A DNA stretch of 41,808 bases from a virus. Made by a program: the position numbers and the translations under genes. Below are positions 32 through 41,808 of the stretch, piece after piece. The notes beneath the pieces are model-generated. The model searched no databases. It worked only from the letters and a program-made list of their open reading frames with translations, and was not told the origin of the DNA. How positions within the stretch are numbered: position 1 is the stretch's first letter; each line of letters opens with the position of its first letter. The stretch is from positions 1 to 41,808 of IMG/VR virus record IMGVR_UViG_3300021477_000002; one strand, 5' to 3'.

Positions 32-1332
32 TTTATTCCGCTAATGCAAACGCAGGTTCATACGATGAAAACCGAAACGATGAATTTCAAGAATTCATGC
101 GCCTATTTGGCATTGAAGCGTTAAGAGTGCTAAAACCTGGTGGAATGATGGCTATGTTCGGCGCTCCTCGTAGGCATCATAGACAGATGTCGGGACTAGA
201 AGACGCAGGGTTTGAGATTAGAGACGTAATAGCTTGGATTTTTGGTCAAGGATTTCCGAAAAGCTTGGATGTCAGTAAAGCGATTGATAAGAAAAAACAT
301 TCTAAAGAAGATTCTTTAAAAGTTGTTGGATGGATAAAAGAAAGATGTAAGAATCTTAATATTGGTTTAAAAGAATTAAACGATATTTGTGAAACAAGTA
401 GAATGGCAGAACATTTTTTTCATCATAATTCTCAGTCACAAATTCCAACAAAAGAACAATGGGAAAAGTTAGAAAAAGTTTTAGGGGAACCTCCAGCTTG
501 CATGAAAGAATTAATACAACCAGCTTTTTCAGTAAATGAAAATTATTTAAAACGTGAAATAATCAAAACTACAGGTTCAATTCATTTAGGTTCAGGAAAT
601 ACGGTCGGATGTTTTACAGGAAATCAAAGAGAAAATAAACCTATCTCAGATCTCGCCAAAACATTTTCCGGCTATGGCACAGCTCTAAAACCAGCAGTAG
701 AAATAATAGTACTCGCAATGAAACCTCTAGACGGAACATTCGCACAGAACGCCGAAAAATGGGGTGTGGCGGGAATCAACGTTGATGAAAGCCGACTTGA
801 AACAAAAGGTGAACCGTGGGGGAATTCGACATGTGGATTTCATGATTCATTAGGACGTGAAAGAAAAGACACAAGTAAACATACAAATGCAAATCTTGTT
901 AAAGGCCGCTGGCCCTCCAATTTAATTCTCGACGAAGAAAGCGCCGCAGAGCTGGACCAGATGACGGGGAATAATGTTTCAAGATTTTTTTACTGCGCAA
1001 AAGCCTCGTCAAGTGAACGTAATAAAGGGCTTGAGGGGTTGCCTGATCAATCATCATCTTGCAATCTAAGACAACAAGGCGGTCTTCCAAAAGCCAATAA
1101 TGAGTTTAAAGTAAAAAATTCACATCCCACAGTTAAACCAATCGCCCTAATGAAATACATTCTAAAGCTTCTCGCCCCTCCTGGCAATCCCATCTGCCTT
1201 GACCCATTTTCTGGTAGTGGTTCCACTCTCTGCGCAGCTAAAGAGCTGGACATCTCTTGCATAGGCATCGAGAAAGAATCAGAGTACGTAGAGATAGCAC
1301 GCAAGCGCATTGAGGGGAATAATGTCATTTAA
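1..1332 (+). CDS. DNA methyltransferase (N6-adenine/N4-cytosine), C-terminal part of an 868-aa virion protein fusion
   Basis: This is the 3' part of the gene that begins at 40503; codon 426 of the whole protein sits at base 1. The catalytic DPPY is in the other part (residues 399-402). Here follow the SAM-binding half, with HPTVKP (800-805) and DPFSGSGST (from 826), and FYCAKAS before it. These are the standard elements of the beta-type N6/N4 methyltransferase family. Between the catalytic and SAM parts lies a helix-turn-helix-like insert (about residues 522-590) ending in a PTKEQWEKL motif, as often seen in phage methylases and likely linked to DNA recognition. The target base and site cannot be told from the sequence. 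The ATG at base 7 is internal, not the gene start. The 3' end overlaps the next gene by 11 bases. Confidence 0.93.
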   Translation, partial: KQMEDRSRRAIYSANANAGSYDENRNDEFQEFMRLFGIEALRVLKPGGMMAMFGAPRRHHRQMSGLEDAGFEIRDVIAWIFGQGFPKSLDVSKAIDKKKHSKEDSLKVVGWIKERCKNLNIGLKELNDICETSRMAEHFFHHNSQSQIPTKEQWEKLEKVLGEPPACMKELIQPAFSVNENYLKREIIKTTGSIHLGSGNTVGCFTGNQRENKPISDLAKTFSGYGTALKPAVEIIVLAMKPLDGTFAQNAEKWGVAGINVDESRLETKGEPWGNSTCGFHDSLGRERKDTSKHTNANLVKGRWPSNLILDEESAAELDQMTGNNVSRFFYCAKASSSERNKGLEGLPDQSSSCNLRQQGGLPKANNEFKVKNSHPTVKPIALMKYILKLLAPPGNPICLDPFSGSGSTLCAAKELDISCIGIEKESEYVEIARKRIEGNNVI

Positions 1333-1903
1333 CGCAACCATCCCGATCGTCACAAATGCAATGCTACAGTCTCAAGGGCAATGCAGGGCTAACTTTCAGG
1401 CTATCAATGCTGTATTCTCTGAGAATCATGTTCCTATGAATACGACTGGAAATAGCGTTCAGGGCATGCATAGCTTGCTTTTATTTAGAGAGCAAACTGT
1501 TGATCCCACAACTTCATCAACTCAGATTTCATTGTATACAAAGGCTATAAATAGTATTTCAGCATTGTTTTTTGCTCCTAACAGCAGTCAAACTCCTATT
1601 CAGCTCACATACCCATCAATCTCAACTGGCCTACAGTCTACAAATCCCGATGTTTATCTTCCACAACAATATAGCTTCGTAGCAGGGCCTTTCGTGATTT
1701 ATGGAGGTTTATTAAAAAATGTATTAAGTGGAAATTCGTTTCCGCTTACTCCTACTTCTACGCTTATTTATGCAGGATTGATATGTCAATCACCTACTAG
1801 CGGTACTAAATATGCAATTCCAGTGATAAGTGGAAGTGGTTTTACTGTGCAGTTTTCAGGCGCTACAGCACAAAATATCTATTACTTAGCAATAGGACAA
1901 TAA
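1322..1903 (+). CDS. Putative tail/fibre structural protein, NHV-motif family (copy 1)
   Basis: A 193-aa protein. I place the start at the ATG at 1322 because GAGGGG lies 5 bases upstream; a TTG four codons earlier is less likely. The N-terminal third carries the pattern NHVPMN-(8)-HSLLLFREQT-(9)-ISLYTKA, shared with the next two genes and common in phage tail tip, fibre or capsid-decoration proteins (family knowledge from memory). The rest is Ser/Thr/Pro-rich beta-type sequence ending in YYLAIGQ. There is no signal peptide or membrane segment. The gene overlaps the methyltransferase stop and runs into copy 2 with a 2-base gap, so the three copies probably form one translational unit. The exact place in the virion is unknown. 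Confidence 0.75.
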   Translation: MSFNATIPIVTNAMLQSQGQCRANFQAINAVFSENHVPMNTTGNSVQGMHSLLLFREQTVDPTTSSTQISLYTKAINSISALFFAPNSSQTPIQLTYPSISTGLQSTNPDVYLPQQYSFVAGPFVIYGGLLKNVLSGNSFPLTPTSTLIYAGLICQSPTSGTKYAIPVISGSGFTVQFSGATAQNIYYLAIGQ

Positions 1904-1905
1904 GA

Positions 1906-2508
1906 GTGCTAAATTATAATCCTAATGTACCTAGAATAACAGATAGTTTTGCAGAATGGCAGCCTGAATTCTTAATGAATTTTAAACAGCTATTTAGAGC
2001 TTTTTTTCAAAATCATGTTTCGCTCAGTTCCACTTCAAATGCAGGAAATCATACTTATATCCAGCTTTTCGAGCAAACTAGCCCACAGCAAACAAATGTA
2101 GGAGAGTTTGCAATCTACACCAAAGAAGATGACACCACTACAGATCAAATTTTCATGCGTTACCAGGGAAATGGGACTGAATTTCAATTTAGTTGCTACC
2201 AGATCTATCCTTTAACACCAACGGACTCCCAGACCCCTTTCTTTGCATTTTTGCCTGGTAAGGTAATTTGCTATTTCGGTTTGTTCAATCAAACCGTTTC
2301 TGTGCCGATCCAAAACCAGATTTTGTTAAATCCTCCGATAGCAAGAAATATCATAAGTGTGAACCTTACAGGTGTAAATAATACAAATCCTGCATCTTCA
2401 GTTACTTTGGTTACAAATAACAAAATCACGACAGCATTAACGTTGTCTACGGCAGTAGCAAGTGTAGCCCCAGCAACTCAATACTATGTTATTTTGGCAA
2501 ACATATGA
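1906..2508 (+). CDS. Putative tail/fibre structural protein, NHV-motif family (copy 2)
   Basis: A 200-aa paralogue of its two neighbours: NHVSLSSTSNAGNHTYIQLFEQT followed by EFAIYTKED lines up with the motif in copies 1 and 3, and the C-terminus (YYVILANI) matches too. The start is GTG, 2 bases after the previous stop; no better-placed ATG exists before residue 20. Residues 90-200 are beta-rich. The stop overlaps the ATG of copy 3 (ATGA), indicating coupled translation. The divergence between copies suggests old duplication, perhaps giving a heteromeric tail or fibre structure. Confidence 0.72.
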   Translation: MLNYNPNVPRITDSFAEWQPEFLMNFKQLFRAFFQNHVSLSSTSNAGNHTYIQLFEQTSPQQTNVGEFAIYTKEDDTTTDQIFMRYQGNGTEFQFSCYQIYPLTPTDSQTPFFAFLPGKVICYFGLFNQTVSVPIQNQILLNPPIARNIISVNLTGVNNTNPASSVTLVTNNKITTALTLSTAVASVAPATQYYVILANI

Positions 2509-3149
2509 CATATAGCCCAAATATCCCTGAACCTTCATCTTCTCCTAAGTCATCTGTATCCAGCATTCAGACCAATTACTCCCAATTTGCAAGCATTTTT
2601 TCCAGTACATCCGGAGGAGTGATATATAATCATGTGCCTTTTAATGATTTCAATCAAGGCAAACATGCCGCTGTTTTGATACAGAATCAAAGCGGTGATA
2701 TAGGTATTGGTGACACACAATCTTTAGCAATTCTTTATTCTAAAAATGCTACTGCTGCTACTGGAGGCCCACAACCGCAATTGTTTGTACAGATCCCTAG
2801 ATTTCTGCCCACTGATTTGGATACGACAAAGTTTCTGAATCCTGGAATGCAGCTCACATATAATACTGTTAATATTTCAGGACCGATATATCAAAGTTTT
2901 ATTGTGGGGGGATATATTCTCTATTTTGGAAGCACAACGACAATTGGCACTCCGATAGTTCTTTCGCCAACTCCAACTAAGATTTTATGCGTTCAGGCAA
3001 TTTCTCAAGGAACTTCTACAGTTGGAGGACAAACAAACGTTCCGTATGATGTGGGAGTGGTTGTAACGCAACCTAAAACAATTAATATCAATTCTACAAT
3101 GGCGCCAGGAGGAGCTAAATTTCTATGGATGGCAATAGCTCAAGCTTAG
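2505..3149 (+). CDS. Putative tail/fibre structural protein, NHV-motif family (copy 3)
   Basis: A 214-aa paralogue with NHVPFNDFNQGKHAAVLIQNQ and SLAILYSKN near residues 47-85, closest to the GKH-type consensus common in phage tail proteins. The C-terminus ends FLWMAIAQA, like the other copies. The ATG overlaps the stop of copy 2. The gene ends one base from the end of a convergent minus-strand gene. Confidence 0.75.
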   Translation: MTYSPNIPEPSSSPKSSVSSIQTNYSQFASIFSSTSGGVIYNHVPFNDFNQGKHAAVLIQNQSGDIGIGDTQSLAILYSKNATAATGGPQPQLFVQIPRFLPTDLDTTKFLNPGMQLTYNTVNISGPIYQSFIVGGYILYFGSTTTIGTPIVLSPTPTKILCVQAISQGTSTVGGQTNVPYDVGVVVTQPKTININSTMAPGGAKFLWMAIAQA

Positions 3150-3150
3150 A

Positions 3151-3345
3151 CTATTTTTGTCTTTCTAATAGGCTGCAAAACATTTTGTATAGTTGGTCTA
3201 TACGTGCTGCGTGGCTATCCATTCTTGATGTATGGCTATCCATTCTTTTAGACAGTCCATCAATGTCTTTTTCGATACGTTGCAGCATGAAAAACATGAA
3301 CCCACCTAAAGACGCTATGATAGTGATTACCTGTATCCAGTCCAT
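3151..3345 (-). CDS. Small membrane protein with C-terminal coiled coil
   Basis: A 64-aa protein: a hydrophobic segment at residues 4-20 (VITIIASLGGFMFFML) and a heptad-type coiled coil with the repeated unit RMDSHTS/RMDSHAA, ending RIDQLYKMFCSLLERQK. A good ribosome site (AAAGGA) precedes the ATG. It is transcribed against the structural genes on both sides and belongs to a group of five such proteins in this genome. The type (one helix in the membrane, coiled coil in solution) could fit a lysis-helper or a membrane sensor; the sequence does not decide. Confidence 0.7.
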   Translation of the reverse strand: MDWIQVITIIASLGGFMFFMLQRIEKDIDGLSKRMDSHTSRMDSHAARIDQLYKMFCSLLERQK

Positions 3346-10779: not shown

Positions 10780-10885
10780 GATATTTTTCAATTTTTAAAT
10801 AATTTCCATCACAAATAGGACAATCTATATCTTTTAAATTTGTATGATTAAAATAAAATCCACATTTTTTACAAGTAAAATTCAT
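10715..10885 (-). CDS. Small zinc-ribbon protein
   Basis: A 56-aa protein with two CxxC knuckles (CKKC at 5-8 and CPIC at 22-25), the usual zinc-ribbon spacing, then a basic tail. Its ATG overlaps the stop of the cytosine methyltransferase (ATGA), so it is translated as part of that operon. It probably binds nucleic acid or protein; the coupling suggests a link with the methyltransferase, but this is inference. Its last 65 bases overlap the downstream gene. Confidence 0.6.
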   Translation of the reverse strand: MNFTCKKCGFYFNHTNLKDIDCPICDGNYLKIEKYHEKTRLDKYNKKSIRNRTKRT

Positions 10886-11622
10886 TTTAATCCCATTAAC
10901 ACTTTAAAAGCTTCTCTTGCTTGCTGAGGACAAACTGAATTGCCCAATGCTCTAGCTCTGTCCAATTCAAACTGTAACCCATCATCCATTCCAAAAGGTG
11001 GACATTTATTTTCTTTCCAATGCTTTCCGAATCCATCTCTCCAATTCGATCTTGAATGTCGTAACCATGAAGCTTGTTCTCTCGACTGGGTGAAGGTTTT
11101 CTTATTGGTTTCCCCGCTTGACTTGCTGTTGGAGTGGGCAAGCAAAAACCATCTTTCCCTTTTATGCGGCGCCATAAGTCCTTCAGCGGATATAACACAC
11201 CATCGACAATCATACCCCATCTCGGTAATGATTCGGGCAATGGAAGGTCCACCTCTCCTTGTAATGGCACAGACATTTTCAAGGAATAGAAACGCGGGCT
11301 TGATTTCTTTGGCCAAGCGCATGATCTCGAAAAATAATCCGCTTCGCTCTCCCGCCAAGCCTTTTCCATTTCCAAGAGTAGAGATATCCTGACAGGGGAA
11401 TCCTCCATATATGATGTGAATGTTTCCCGAGAAGTCCAATCCTGTAATGCTACGTATGTCTTCAGAGATAGGAGCCTTGGGTAATCTTCCTTCGGCCATC
11501 CGTGATAAAAGAACACCTTGGCAATAGGGGTCGATTTCACAATAGGCAACTGGTCGCACCCATTCTTTAAGTGCGACTGAAATTCCTCCGATTCCGCTAA
11601 AAAGATCCAAACCATTTAACAT
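10882..11622 (-). CDS. DNA (cytosine-5) methyltransferase
   Basis: A 246-aa complete but compact enzyme that transfers a methyl group from SAM to cytosine C5. Motifs in order: DLFSGIGG (6-13, SAM site), GGFPCQDIS (73-81, catalytic Cys77), ENV (115-117), KRERWF (154-159) and RALGNSVCPQQA (224-235). The target-recognition region between the last two motifs is short (about 60 residues), as in small phage enzymes. No partner restriction nuclease is nearby, so a role in shielding phage DNA from host restriction is the likely use. The gene heads a minus-strand island (12051 to 10528) set between structural operons. Confidence 0.95.
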   Translation of the reverse strand: MLNGLDLFSGIGGISVALKEWVRPVAYCEIDPYCQGVLLSRMAEGRLPKAPISEDIRSITGLDFSGNIHIIYGGFPCQDISTLGNGKGLAGERSGLFFEIMRLAKEIKPAFLFLENVCAITRRGGPSIARIITEMGYDCRWCVISAEGLMAPHKRERWFLLAHSNSKSSGETNKKTFTQSREQASWLRHSRSNWRDGFGKHWKENKCPPFGMDDGLQFELDRARALGNSVCPQQAREAFKVLMGLK

Positions 11623-11630
11623 ATTCCTTA

Positions 11631-11846
11631 CTACTTCTTATTCCTTTCCTCTATAGCGCAGAGTCTTCCATGAAAGTCTTTCATTTCTTCTCTAATAGCA
11701 ATAAGATTATATTCCATTGCTTCGTGCATAGCATCTATTTTCGTGTCTGTATGCATGTATAAAGGAATTGTAGAACCTAGAATTGTAACCAAAACTATCA
11801 ACATCTCAATCATTGGTTGCCATTGGATTCTTCTGTCATTTTCCAT
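11631..11846 (-). CDS. Small membrane protein with coiled coil (MKDFH family)
   Basis: A 71-aa protein: polar start, one membrane helix (about 13-30, MIEMLIVLVTILGSTIPLY), then a coiled coil ending EEMKDFHGRLCAIEERNKK. The tail is nearly the same as that of the plus-strand gene at 34593 (EMKDFHNRLCKIESEKNK). It overlaps the upstream regulator gene by 11 bases and lies 8 bases ahead of the methyltransferase, so all belong to one operon. Confidence 0.68.
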   Translation of the reverse strand: MENDRRIQWQPMIEMLIVLVTILGSTIPLYMHTDTKIDAMHEAMEYNLIAIREEMKDFHGRLCAIEERNKK

Positions 11847-34572: not shown

Positions 34573-34592
34573 CATGGAAAATGGAGGCTAAT

Positions 34593-34790
34593 ATGGAATG
34601 GACACAATTTATTATATTTTTTCTAGGAGTTTTTGGGCTTTTTATCTGGAACAGGACTGAATCTAGAGCAGACATTAGGCACATGGATAATAAAATTGAC
34701 GCTATTCGAGAGTTAATGCATGCGATTCATATTGAAATGAAAGACTTTCATAATAGACTTTGCAAGATTGAATCAGAGAAAAATAAATGA
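34593..34790 (+). CDS. Small membrane protein with coiled coil (MKDFH family)
   Basis: A 65-aa protein. ATG 34593 has GGAGG 6 bases before it. Membrane helix (about 5-18, FIIFFLGVFGLFIW), coiled coil (DNKIDAIRELMHAIHIE), and the tail MKDFHNRLCKIE, nearly identical to the minus-strand gene at 11631. Coupled to the next gene by ATGA. Confidence 0.7.
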   Translation: MEWTQFIIFFLGVFGLFIWNRTESRADIRHMDNKIDAIRELMHAIHIEMKDFHNRLCKIESEKNK

Positions 34791-36365: not shown

Positions 36366-38071
36366 ATGTCAGGTCCCACTACGACATCGATATTACCTCC
36401 AGCAGTACAGCAACAGCTTTCAATGAAGCTGCTTGCTCGTCCAATGCCTGATCTGATCCATACAACTATGGGATATCCGATCACAATGGACCAACAAGCT
36501 GGAGACATTCTGAGACGTCGCCGTTATCAGAACCTACAGACAGCACCAGTGCCATTAGGCAATGGTATTGTAGACCCACCAGCGCAGCAGTTAACCGCTC
36601 TGGATATTGATGCTAGAATAGATTGGTTCGACCGTGCCAATCTTCTTGCAGCATAGGTAAATGACGGTACCTATATTATTCTGCAAGAGCAGGTTTTTTG
36701 AACATGGCCTGCTATAAATCCGCTCTGATTGACTTGGACCGCCGAGAGGCAAACAAGGGGCAAGATTATGGAAATTAAAAAGGAGAATGGAAAAATTATA
36801 ACTACGATGACATTTTCAGAATGTTTTTTTGGTTATGATGATCCAGAATTATCAAAAGCGATTATAGATCGATTTGATGAAACCATTTTATATCCTAGTC
36901 AGCCTGACAGACTAAGGCGAGTGGACACTGGAGACAGTGAAGCGATAGTCGGATCTGCAAATATAGAAGAAATTGCAGAAACTAGCAGAAATGACTAGTT
37001 CAAGTGTTAGTTGAAAATAGTAACACTTAGTAACAAAATGAATGCTCATAAACGAAGATCCCGTATTAAATTCTTCCATTAGTGTATTAGGTCAGAGTTT
37101 AAGAGAAACTGAGGATCAACTAGCTAGATCGATGATGGAAGGGGGTAAAATGTGTGCCCCCTATAAATCTTCTCTGATTGACTTGGAACTCCTAGCGGCA
37201 TAAGGTCGAGGGACAACAAGGGGCAAGATATGAACTTTCAAATGAAAATGAGTTATAAGACTGAAAAGCAAATGAAAAAATTATATGGCAAAAATCTAGG
37301 AAGAGATATTGCTTTTGGTAGAATTTTAACAAAAATATTGAAAGAAGAATTTCAGCCTGAACGACTAAGTGAGAAGACACCGAAAGGTGATGCGATAGTC
37401 TGAACTCTATGGAAACATAGAGAGGGAGATTCGAAGAAGTTTCCCCGCCTGAATGTGTCACACATAGTGTGAGAAATAAAATCAGGTCATAAAAGTAACA
37501 GAAATTGGCACCTCCGATTAATTGTACTAGTGGTACAAACGGAGACAATCCTACGAACGTCTCGCCGTTAGATTGCTCCAAAGCAGTCAGATTGCTAAGA
37601 ACTGCCAACGCTCAGTTCATCCAGGACATGATTGAAGGCGAGAACAAGTTCGGTACAGCTCCCGTACGTACCGCCTTCTTTGGTTTGGCTCATACTAATT
37701 TGAGCGCAGACCTAGACCAGATGGTCGGCTTTATCAACGTTGCTAATTATGCGAATAACAGCAACTTGCTTATGGCCGAATGGGGTTCGATTAGAAATAT
37801 TCGATTCCTGTTATCGTCTGTAGGCTCAATTATTCCTGGTGCTTCTGCAAACGGTTCAGATGTCTATAATATTTTCCTGCCTGGCCAGGAATCGTATGAC
37901 ATGGTTGACCTGGACGGTTATTCCGCTCAGTTCATCTATGCACCACCTGAGATTGCATCTCCTCGTCTGAGACTTTATCAGACTGCTGGTTGGAAGATGG
38001 CGCAAGTATTCAATATTACCAACACATCTTGGATCGTAGCATTACGTTGCACGCTTCAAGTGGCACTATAG
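36366..38071 (+). CDS. Major capsid protein, N4-gp56 family; gene split by two group I introns
   Basis: Proposed exons: 36366-36694, 37041-37146, 37508-38071 (999 bases, 333 codons with stop). Exon 1 gives the family N-terminus (LPPAVQQQLSMKLLARPMPD; LDIDARIDWF ... GTYIILQEQ), exon 2 VMLINEDPVLNSSISVLGQS and RETEDQLARSMMEGG, exon 3 APPINCTSGTNGDNPT to FVARGLHTL-type end (WIVALRCTLQVAL). Joined, these read through as one N4-gp56 capsid protein, the phases agreeing at both joints. One problem remains: codon 97 (36654-36656) is TAG, inside codons 89-100 that the family lacks. Full-length protein therefore needs readthrough, ribosome bypass or another event. Confidence 0.85.
36695..37040 (+). ncRNA. 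Group I intron 1 in the capsid gene (346 nt)
   Basis: P1: gcaggT of the exon pairs with Gcctgc (U.G at the splice site, cut after 36694). P7: gacta (36910 region) with tagtc in gcgatagtc; P8: cact/agtg between them. Then 3' hairpins tctgcaa/ttgcaga, actag/ctagt and aagtgtta/taacactt. The intron ends in G (37040). Splicing joins GT|A to a Val codon and restores the capsid frame. Confidence 0.85.
36768..36998 (+). CDS. Small ORF inside intron 1
   Basis: A 76-codon frame (MEIKKENGKIITTMTFSECF..) looped out between P6-type and P7 parts, with AAGGGGCAAG 4-9 bases before ATG. It has no LAGLIDADG, GIY-YIG or HNH motif; at this size it is unlikely to be a working homing endonuclease. Its 3' part overlaps the P7 core, so its sequence is partly set by RNA structure. 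Confidence 0.35.
   Translation: MEIKKENGKIITTMTFSECFFGYDDPELSKAIIDRFDETILYPSQPDRLRRVDTGDSEAIVGSANIEEIAETSRND
37147..37507 (+). ncRNA. Group I intron 2 in the capsid gene (361 nt)
   Basis: P1: agggggT pairs with Gccccct (U.G, cut after 37146). P10: exon 3 gcac pairs with gtgt just 5' of the guide. P7: gacta (about 37360) with tagtc (37396-37400); P8: cacc-gaaa-ggtg; P9: ctctatg-gaaa-catagag, a GNRA-type hairpin. Ends in G (37507). Core blocks ctataaatc..ctctgattgacttgga and caaggggcaagat are shared with intron 1. Confidence 0.88.
37230..37403 (+). CDS. Small ORF inside intron 2
   Basis: A 57-codon Lys-rich frame (MNFQMKMSYKTEKQMKKLYG..) beginning at the same place relative to the core (after aaggggcaagat) as the ORF of intron 1. 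The two proteins are not alike. No homing-nuclease motif. It may be a leftover of a former intron gene or simply open by chance. Confidence 0.3.
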   Translation: MNFQMKMSYKTEKQMKKLYGKNLGRDIAFGRILTKILKEEFQPERLSEKTPKGDAIV

Positions 38072-40502: not shown

Positions 40503-41808
40503 ATGACAGCTTTTACTCAATTAGTTAGTTTGCAGCAGATGGAGAATACTGTCAGGCGTATGACTGCGCGTTATACCGAGCAGCAGATGCCTACCACTCA
40601 AATCGATTATTATATTAATTTAGCTTATATAATTCATTTTCCAGAACAATTTAAAAATCTTAAATTAACTAAACCTTATGTTTTTACTACAATTCCTAAT
40701 GTGGATACTTATGACTTTGTTTATGAGGCTGGGCTTGTAGACGATCCGACTCTGCCACCAGGAAATAAGGCAGTTCCAGGAAACATCCAAATAACCCCTC
40801 CAGTGTATTGTCAGGGATATATTTTAAGATACTTTCAGGATAAAACGACTTTTTATAATCGATGGCCTAATCTGAGCGTGAATCAGCAAATAAATACAGG
40901 AAATGGAGTAATTGGAAAGACATATTCTGGAATAATACCACCTACACCATTCTACAGAGCTCAATTAGACATTTTCGGAAATGTGACAGAACCCGGAGTG
41001 GTTATCTCCTCTTTCGATAACACAGGTTATAATTACACACTTACAGATGTTCCATCTCCTAATAGCAACACAGGCGCCCTATATGACGCCCAGGGAAATG
41101 ATGTCGGTACCGTGAATTATGTGACAGGTGCATATACTTTTACCGTAAATGGTTCCAGCGTTATTCCTAAGGGAGATCCGATCTATGCTGCCGTTGTGCC
41201 TTATCAATCTTCTAGGCCGACAGATGTTCTCTTCTATAACCAACAGATCATATTCAGGCCATGTCCTCAACAAGTCTACCTTGTCGAGTTCCAGATAAGT
41301 CAGCAGCCGACACAATTGATTGCTACCAATCAGGCTCCCGAGCTTGACGAATGGTATCTTTTCATCTGTGCTATCGCTGCAAAACTTATCTATACAGATT
41401 TTCCAGATCCTGAAGGGATGGCACAGCTCATGCCGATATATCAGGATCAATTGCAGATGGCGCAGAGGCGTTCATTGAGACAGATGAGCAGCCAGAGGGC
41501 TTCGACAATATTTAGTCAGCCTGAAGGCCACTCGCGTCTTGGTTTTGGGGAACTGAGTACAGTGGGAGTTCAGGATAAAATGATTAATCCACAATTAGAA
41601 TTATTCCCTAATACATCTAAGCAAGAGATCATCCAGGGTGATTGCCTAGAAGTCATGCGAAGCATGGCAGAGAGTAGCATTGATTTTATTTGTACCGATC
41701 CTCCTTACGGACTACATTTTATGGGGAAAGATTGGGATAAGTTTAAAAAGAGTAATTTTGACGAATCAAATGATTATAAACAAATGGAAGATCGAAGTAG
41801 ACGAGCAA
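40503..41808 (+). CDS. Head-tail structural protein fused in frame to a DNA methyltransferase (N-terminal 425 codons and beyond)
   Basis: I read codon by codon from ATG 40503 to the end of the window without a stop; the frame continues at base 1 to TAA 1332, giving 868 aa. Residues 1-355 resemble the podovirus head-completion/tail adaptor protein (SLQQMENTVRRMTARYTEQQ; INLAYIIHFPEQFK; YDFVYEAG; FRPCPQQVYLVEFQISQQPT; then LDEWYLFICAIAAKLIY and a Gln/Arg-rich tail). Residue 360 (ATG 41580) begins a complete N6/N4 methyltransferase with DPPY at 399-402. GGGAG lies 11 bases before ATG 41580, so a separate methyltransferase could also be made from inside the gene. Starts 1 base after the preceding stop. 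Confidence 0.85.
   Translation, partial: MTAFTQLVSLQQMENTVRRMTARYTEQQMPTTQIDYYINLAYIIHFPEQFKNLKLTKPYVFTTIPNVDTYDFVYEAGLVDDPTLPPGNKAVPGNIQITPPVYCQGYILRYFQDKTTFYNRWPNLSVNQQINTGNGVIGKTYSGIIPPTPFYRAQLDIFGNVTEPGVVISSFDNTGYNYTLTDVPSPNSNTGALYDAQGNDVGTVNYVTGAYTFTVNGSSVIPKGDPIYAAVVPYQSSRPTDVLFYNQQIIFRPCPQQVYLVEFQISQQPTQLIATNQAPELDEWYLFICAIAAKLIYTDFPDPEGMAQLMPIYQDQLQMAQRRSLRQMSSQRASTIFSQPEGHSRLGFGELSTVGVQDKMINPQLELFPNTSKQEIIQGDCLEVMRSMAESSIDFICTDPPYGLHFMGKDWDKFKKSNFDESNDYKQMEDRSRRA
41778..41808. repeat. Terminal direct repeat (second copy)
   Basis: Identical to bases 1-31; see the first copy. Coding phase is preserved across the join. Confidence 0.93.

Follow-up and report, generated by a model that had tools for sequence, protein, structure and literature searches.

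How can a major capsid gene be read through when, with both of its group I introns removed, a stop codon still stands in its frame? This is the question raised by the soil phage record IMGVR_UViG_3300021477_000002 of IMG/VR, of which positions 1-41,808 were analysed (the window, 41,808 nt at its full length). The capsid gene (36366-38071, + strand) contains three inserts, i.e. two group I introns and a 36-nt mini-insert (Table 1). In the preliminary description of this DNA, joining 36694 to 37041 and 37146 to 37508 was taken to give a continuous reading, which is not so: an in-frame TAG at 36654-36656, inside the mini-insert, stays in the product, and this third, core-less insert with its stop codon had been overlooked. 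Intron-free relatives from IMG/VR, 13 of which were the reference for spliced alignment, read DARIDW-YGTYLILQEQ across the site without interruption, and the window therefore holds one extra insert at 36628-36663. Both introns lie exactly where they had been described. With all three inserts out, a frame of 321 codons is open, and its 320 aa product shows 94.4% identity with zero gaps to the intact capsid protein of relative L002. Membership in the N4-gp56 capsid family was borne out, as the last exon alone (37508-38068) scored 78.5 bits and L002 152 bits to NCBIfam TIGR04387 (cut-off 60). An intact separate capsid gene, named earlier as evidence against an interrupted one, was not found in the window by tblastn, which returned these exons only (next best E-value 0.99).

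Table 1. Exons, inserts and RNA helices of the capsid gene, in positions of the window.
Feature	Position	Strand	Details and evidence
Capsid exon 1, 262 nt, ends GATTGGT	36366-36627	+	13 intron-free relatives aligned; spliced product open
P1a, 5' strand AGATTGGT	36620-36627	+	Pairs with 36636-36643 GCCAATCT; U.G at splice site; MFE fold
Mini-insert, core-less, 36 nt	36628-36663	+	Intron-free relatives without insert; core profile 0/69 minis
P10a guide ACCGT	36631-36635	+	Pairs with next-exon ACGGT 36664-36668; co-varies across loci
Helix A, 5' strand TCTTGCAG	36644-36651	+	Pairs with exon 36681-36688 CTGCAAGA, which borders the partner P1 on its 5' side; fold z -4.39; co-variation
Inner helix	36653-36659/36668-36674		Within the hairpin of helix A, same fold
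Capsid micro-exon 2, 31 nt, YGTYIILQEQ	36664-36694	+	Spliced alignment to relatives
Full group I intron, site 293, partner ribozyme (putative)	36695-37040	+	Core model match 36903-36982; family-core covariation
Helices of intron 36695-37040	P1 36688-36694/36707-36713; P3 36719-36725/36919-36925; P7 36910-36914/36946-36950
Capsid exon 3, 106 nt	37041-37146	+	Spliced alignment to relatives
Full group I intron, site 399, without mini attached	37147-37507	+	Core model match 37356-37426; RF00028 23.1 bits
Helices of intron 37147-37507	P1 37140-37146/37156-37162; P3 37168-37174/37371-37377; P7 37363-37367/37396-37400
Capsid exon 4 including stop	37508-38071	+	TIGR04387 78.5 bits; PHROG 1357 E 3.9e-16

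Both full-size inserts are ordinary group I introns, predicted to be self-splicing. As previously described, each has a P1 with U.G at the 5' splice site (strands AGCAGGU/GCCUGCU in intron 36695-37040 and AGGGGGU/GCCCCCU in intron 37147-37507), P7 GACTA/TAGTC, P8 and P9 hairpins and a last G, and a core with the P3/P7 pseudoknot, P4-P6 and P8 was found in both. A covariance model for P7-P9, trained on 17 introns from relatives, detected exactly these two cores in the whole window, with 45.5 bits (E 3e-10) for the first and 92.4 bits (E 1e-22) for the second. The core of these 17 related introns had 90.6% of cells paired versus 67.3% when shuffled, and 45 of its 55 pairs showed changes on both sides, the P3/P7 pseudoknot included. 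The Rfam RF00028 search suggested earlier gave a sub-threshold match for the second intron (gathering score 50), and no match for the first intron or in 14 relatives; the gathering score is a library threshold and not a defining trait, and the model is too weak or uninformative for these introns. Each intron also contains a short reading frame that matched no known family (36768-36998 and 37230-37403). The same intron regions in relatives hold LAGLIDADG-like frames or nothing, and the frames of the window may therefore be remnants.

Two introns in one capsid gene had been called unusual, which does not hold within this group: among the 58 clade-1 genes readable from near end to end, 31 hold at least two inserts. 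Multiple introns are common in the capsid gene of these phages, and the surprise is the apparently dependent mini-intron. The gene is an intron hot spot with more than 10 full-intron sites in each of three clades (L001-L322), and the maximum found was five inserts, in L145. When the core model was run on 95 loci and the output read by eye, nearly all strong matches were in or near the capsid gene.

The mini-insert carries P1 with U.G, P10 and a terminal G, the P10a guide being the five bases just ahead of the P1a guide. In the MFE fold of 36614-36720 (-35.3 kcal/mol, z -4.39), P1a, a long hairpin and the partner P1 follow consecutively, and the long hairpin, composed of helix A and the inner helix, is the mini-insert tail paired with the micro-exon. 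With the core profile, an own catalytic core P3-P9 was detected in none of 69 minis. On the basis of this, and of a length of 28-65 nt, which is too short, the mini is not a group I intron proper, though it has group I splice signals. An assembly or sequencing error was rejected as the source of the TAG, since the insert, at differing lengths, recurs in 20 loci of clade 1, the window among them. A recoded TAG and an in-frame peptide insertion were rejected as well, because the insert is frame-shifting in many units and missing from intron-free relatives.

Three protein-based surveys together with the window comprised 238 loci, 219 of which cover the region and 19 do not; among the 219, L080 and L119 are one and the same contig, and some other contigs are nearly identical to each other, such as L109/L111/L112, L050/L060 and L270/L271. 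A mini of 28-65 nt was present in 47 of the 219, and a complete group I intron followed 26-86 nt downstream in 47/47. Among loci without any insert at the mini site (262/264), a full intron was located downstream in 36/170, at 312/315 or 350/353, and introns at these sites were usually without mini. Introns at sites 290/293/314 were found in 40 loci, with the mini in 40/40, and in 0/172 loci lacking it (Fisher 5.5e-37, loci treated as independent, with relatedness and co-conversion ignored). Two DNA-pattern scans raised the distinct units of mini and partner to 69, some of them found by a pattern that requires P1 together with the two initial P10 bases. Two other pattern scans, aimed at 290/293-type introns without their mini, returned 0. 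The partner was at site 290 in 32 units, 293 in 21, 314 in 10, 350 in five and 312 in one, and it matched the core profile in 69/69 (66 at E<=1e-3). The mini site is GATTGGT/AC in clade 1; in clades 2 and 3 it is TACGGT/AC, which lies 5 nt further on. All three frame classes are represented among the mini lengths (27/20/22), and in all 69 units a stop is met if the mini is retained and the frame is open if it is removed. The spliced aligner was biased to T/..G/ ends, which left clade 1 unaffected (no shift possible, 21/21) and clade 2 with a 1-nt ambiguity (48/48).

Chance matches of the mini pattern outside capsid genes were dropped, i.e. 2/20 (L088, L091) and 5/67 (L190, L197, L203, L222, L239), and L188, L189, L194, L195, L202, L208, L213 and L242 were left uncounted, as contig or alignment ends before the partner region. 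Clade 3 is represented in the 69 units by L192 only (same contig as L270); its minis in L259, L275, L299 and L301 were read by eye, outside the 69 units. The host search in bacterial genomes gave 23 pattern stretches and zero relatives, and cultured phages contributed five distant records only, each below 60% identity.

Across the units, the guides and helix A appear co-adapted. The U.G pair and the first three P10 pairs were present in 69/69, which is partly by construction for the pattern-found loci. P10 pairs co-vary, with CG in 13 and TA in 8 units of clade 1, and CG 34, TA 5, AT 6 and GC 3 in clade 2; equally good shuffles numbered 0/20000. Whatever the partner site, the mini tail pairs with the stretch of exon that borders the partner P1 on its 5' side, and in 47/48 clade-2 units (sites 290, 312, 314, 350) the 3' end of helix A is 7-9 nt from the partner 5' splice site, the sole exception being L236, without helix A at the usual place. 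The strands, tail and exon respectively, are CTGATTCTGTAA and TTACAGAATCAG in L110, CTGATTTTGTAA and TTACAAAATCAG in L118 and CTGGTTTTGTAA and TTACAAAACCAG in L139 for site 314, GTTTATCTG and CAGATAAAC in L145 for site 290, and ACCGAGATGTG and CACGTCTTGGT in L102 for site 350. Own tail and exon paired better than in 20000/20000 within-group shuffles at sites 293 (n = 21), 290 (n = 32) and 314 (n = 10), with kinship ignored; at site 350 (n = 5) no specificity was seen, 6053/20000 shuffles being equally good. An uninterrupted helix A of only 5 bp occurs in the 290 units L108, L125, L143, L177, L187, L215 and L230, and in L023, L032 and L061 the inner helix, instead of helix A, was the longest pairing found. 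The clade-3 minis of L259, L299 and L301 had the same tail/exon pairing by eye, and that of L275 was shorter. MFE folds of four units gave P1a, helix A and P1b, with z from -3.5 to -4.8.

The insert boundaries, the restoration of the frame, the conserved guide and helix A, the obligate partner and the absence of a core together suggest that the mini is probably a non-autonomous group I intron, excised by the core of the neighbouring intron. Removal would take place on the RNA. The mini retains P1a with U.G and P10a, the guide by which both of its own splice sites are defined, as well as the terminal G, and lacks a P3-P9 core; the core of intron 36695-37040, 31 nt downstream, would excise the mini 36628-36663. 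Helix A, formed by the mini tail and the exon 5' of the partner P1, would fold the micro-exon away and put P1a at the base of P1b and J1/2, where P1a could dock in the position of P1b. The mini would be excised first, because the core would be lost if the partner were gone first, and self-removal of the partner would come second. A P1 hairpin can be cleaved by a core not normally joined to it, as known from early ribozyme work. The same holds for engineered spliceozymes, which remove introns of 100 nt (PMC4094466, PMC4509937). A side effect would be addiction, as loss of the partner would mean loss of the capsid protein for the phage. With less assurance, we lean towards the wider reading of a natural spliceozyme, i.e. 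a group I ribozyme that would routinely splice a core-less cis intron before itself, the minis being descendants of full introns of these very sites, with the catalyst lost and dependence on a neighbour acquired through a newly evolved docking helix.

The least unlikely alternative takes the mini for a regulatory poison insert, retained in some of the transcripts so that the protein is truncated or ribosomes are kept off the partner fold, and removed by the partner only when needed. The stop in 69/69 units would suit such a role, but stops are expected in many untranslated inserts, and the regulated form is not visible from DNA; as the explanation of the mini it is unlikely, and it is compatible with excision by the neighbouring core as an added function.

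Removal in trans, by another group I ribozyme of the gene or the phage, draws on the other introns present in most of these genes and on the excision of introns in trans by engineered ribozymes (PMC4094466, PMC4509937). We consider it very unlikely: helix A fits the exon beside whichever neighbour is present, zero neighbour-less minis were found among those with a readable downstream gene, and in some clade-1 genes (e.g. L004, L014, L023) the neighbour is the sole full intron.

Translational bypass is known from T4 gene 60 and from the yeast mitochondrial byps. Here the ribosome would hop over a mini kept in the mRNA, and the full introns alone would be spliced. The minis resemble these inserts (about 30-60 nt) in their size range, in the stop within, in the surrounding hairpins and in the link to mobile elements, for which the T4-type mobile cassette is a precedent. 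Bypass is nevertheless barely probable, as matched take-off and landing codons occur in 0/48 clade-2 and 0/21 clade-1 units: in clade 2 the take-off codon is GGT and the last mini triplet is GGN in 0/48, and in clade 1 the next codon is TTA, TTT, TTC, TGC, TCT or TCA against the landing codon GAC or GAT in 21/21. Moreover, bypass gives no role to a P1 and P10 splice guide with U.G wobble or to an obligate adjacent group I intron. Least probable is the use of the outer sites only, with the mini 5' site joined to the neighbour 3' site as in the Twort/Coxiella-like skipping documented for tandem group I introns (PMC10136302), since the micro-exon codes for a segment retained in intron-free relatives (YGTYLILQEQ / FYGTYVQLNEQ...), P10a pairs with the micro-exon start and co-varies, and about 9-28 conserved residues would be lost, out of frame in some units.

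Concerning the origin of the minis as dependent introns, two loci have a mini site occupied by a full-size intron, L058 at site 262 (intron of 689 nt) and L320 at site 264 (706 nt). Their P1 guides, GCCAATC and GCCGTA, are those of the minis, and the L320 intron also shares the P10 part ATAGGT. The minis may therefore be derived from full introns by core deletion, or may instead have preceded them. Many partner introns contain LAGIIDGEGS-type reading frames, often antisense, and the single such frame tested scored 20.3 bits to LAGLIDADG_1, just below the cut-off of 23.1. The unit is scattered over the clade-1 capsid tree, which has 63 rows (20 of them mini-bearing) and was built after removal of the sequence surrounding the insert. 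It requires 17 changes there, at least 13 of them forced by starred branches, and despite this distribution mini and partner are always together. The two thus seem to spread or vanish jointly, as homing with co-conversion would give.

Group I introns of phage structural genes are described for the LittleE capsid gene (PMC3706429), Twort orf142 (PMC10136302) and Bastillevirinae (PMC11878797), sometimes several per gene and with very short exons, as here, and some with LAGLIDADG-type frames. Every intron reported in the available text of these sources has its own ribozyme, whereas in the window one insert lacks it. Engineered spliceozymes (PMC4094466, PMC4509937) likewise excise an intron without its own core by a group I ribozyme, but are man-made, act in trans and hold the guide in the ribozyme; the system of the window, as judged from sequence, would be natural and in cis, with the guide in the mini and a ribozyme that also self-splices. 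Tandem exon skipping (PMC10136302) similarly uses two neighbouring sets of splice sites in one reaction; there the middle exon is lost and both introns have cores, whereas here the exon is needed and one intron is core-less. A natural core-less group I intron served by its neighbour was not found in the accessible portions of the open-access literature (PMC3984707 included).

Models of how the spliceosome evolved give a central place to introns whose catalyst is encoded elsewhere. The group III introns of Euglena plastids are degenerate, with the core of the autonomous ancestor lost; unlike the minis they are of group II descent, and their helper is thought to be trans-acting. If the proposed dependence is true, the minis would offer an observable group I parallel to the loss of intron autonomy towards a shared splicing machine; they would also act as an addiction device, locking the partner into an essential gene. 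The dependence is testable on RNAs a few hundred nucleotides long, such as the L177 unit with its 28-nt mini, 26-nt exon and 199-nt partner. For annotation, masking of group I introns is insufficient for a correct reading of these capsid genes.

Elsewhere in the window, two long overlapping same-strand frames at 10882-11622 (-) are both DNA methyltransferase-like, possibly a dual-coding gene pair: the frame of 246 aa matched Pfam DNA_methylase (E 1.3e-35), and that of 239 aa PHROG 1008 (E 4.6e-9) and 21 phage records by tblastn. Three consecutive genes at 1310-3149 have the look of tandem paralogues, with similar openings and lengths. Small proteins of a recurring family, each with a single membrane-like segment and an MD/RID coiled tail, are encoded at 3151-3345 (-), 11631-11846 (-) and 34581-34790 (+), and a 63-aa frame in the group I intron at site 293 of L019 is similar to these MD/RID-tail proteins. 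The ends of the window form a direct terminal repeat of 31 nt (1-31 = 41778-41808), and the record is therefore probably a complete circular assembly.
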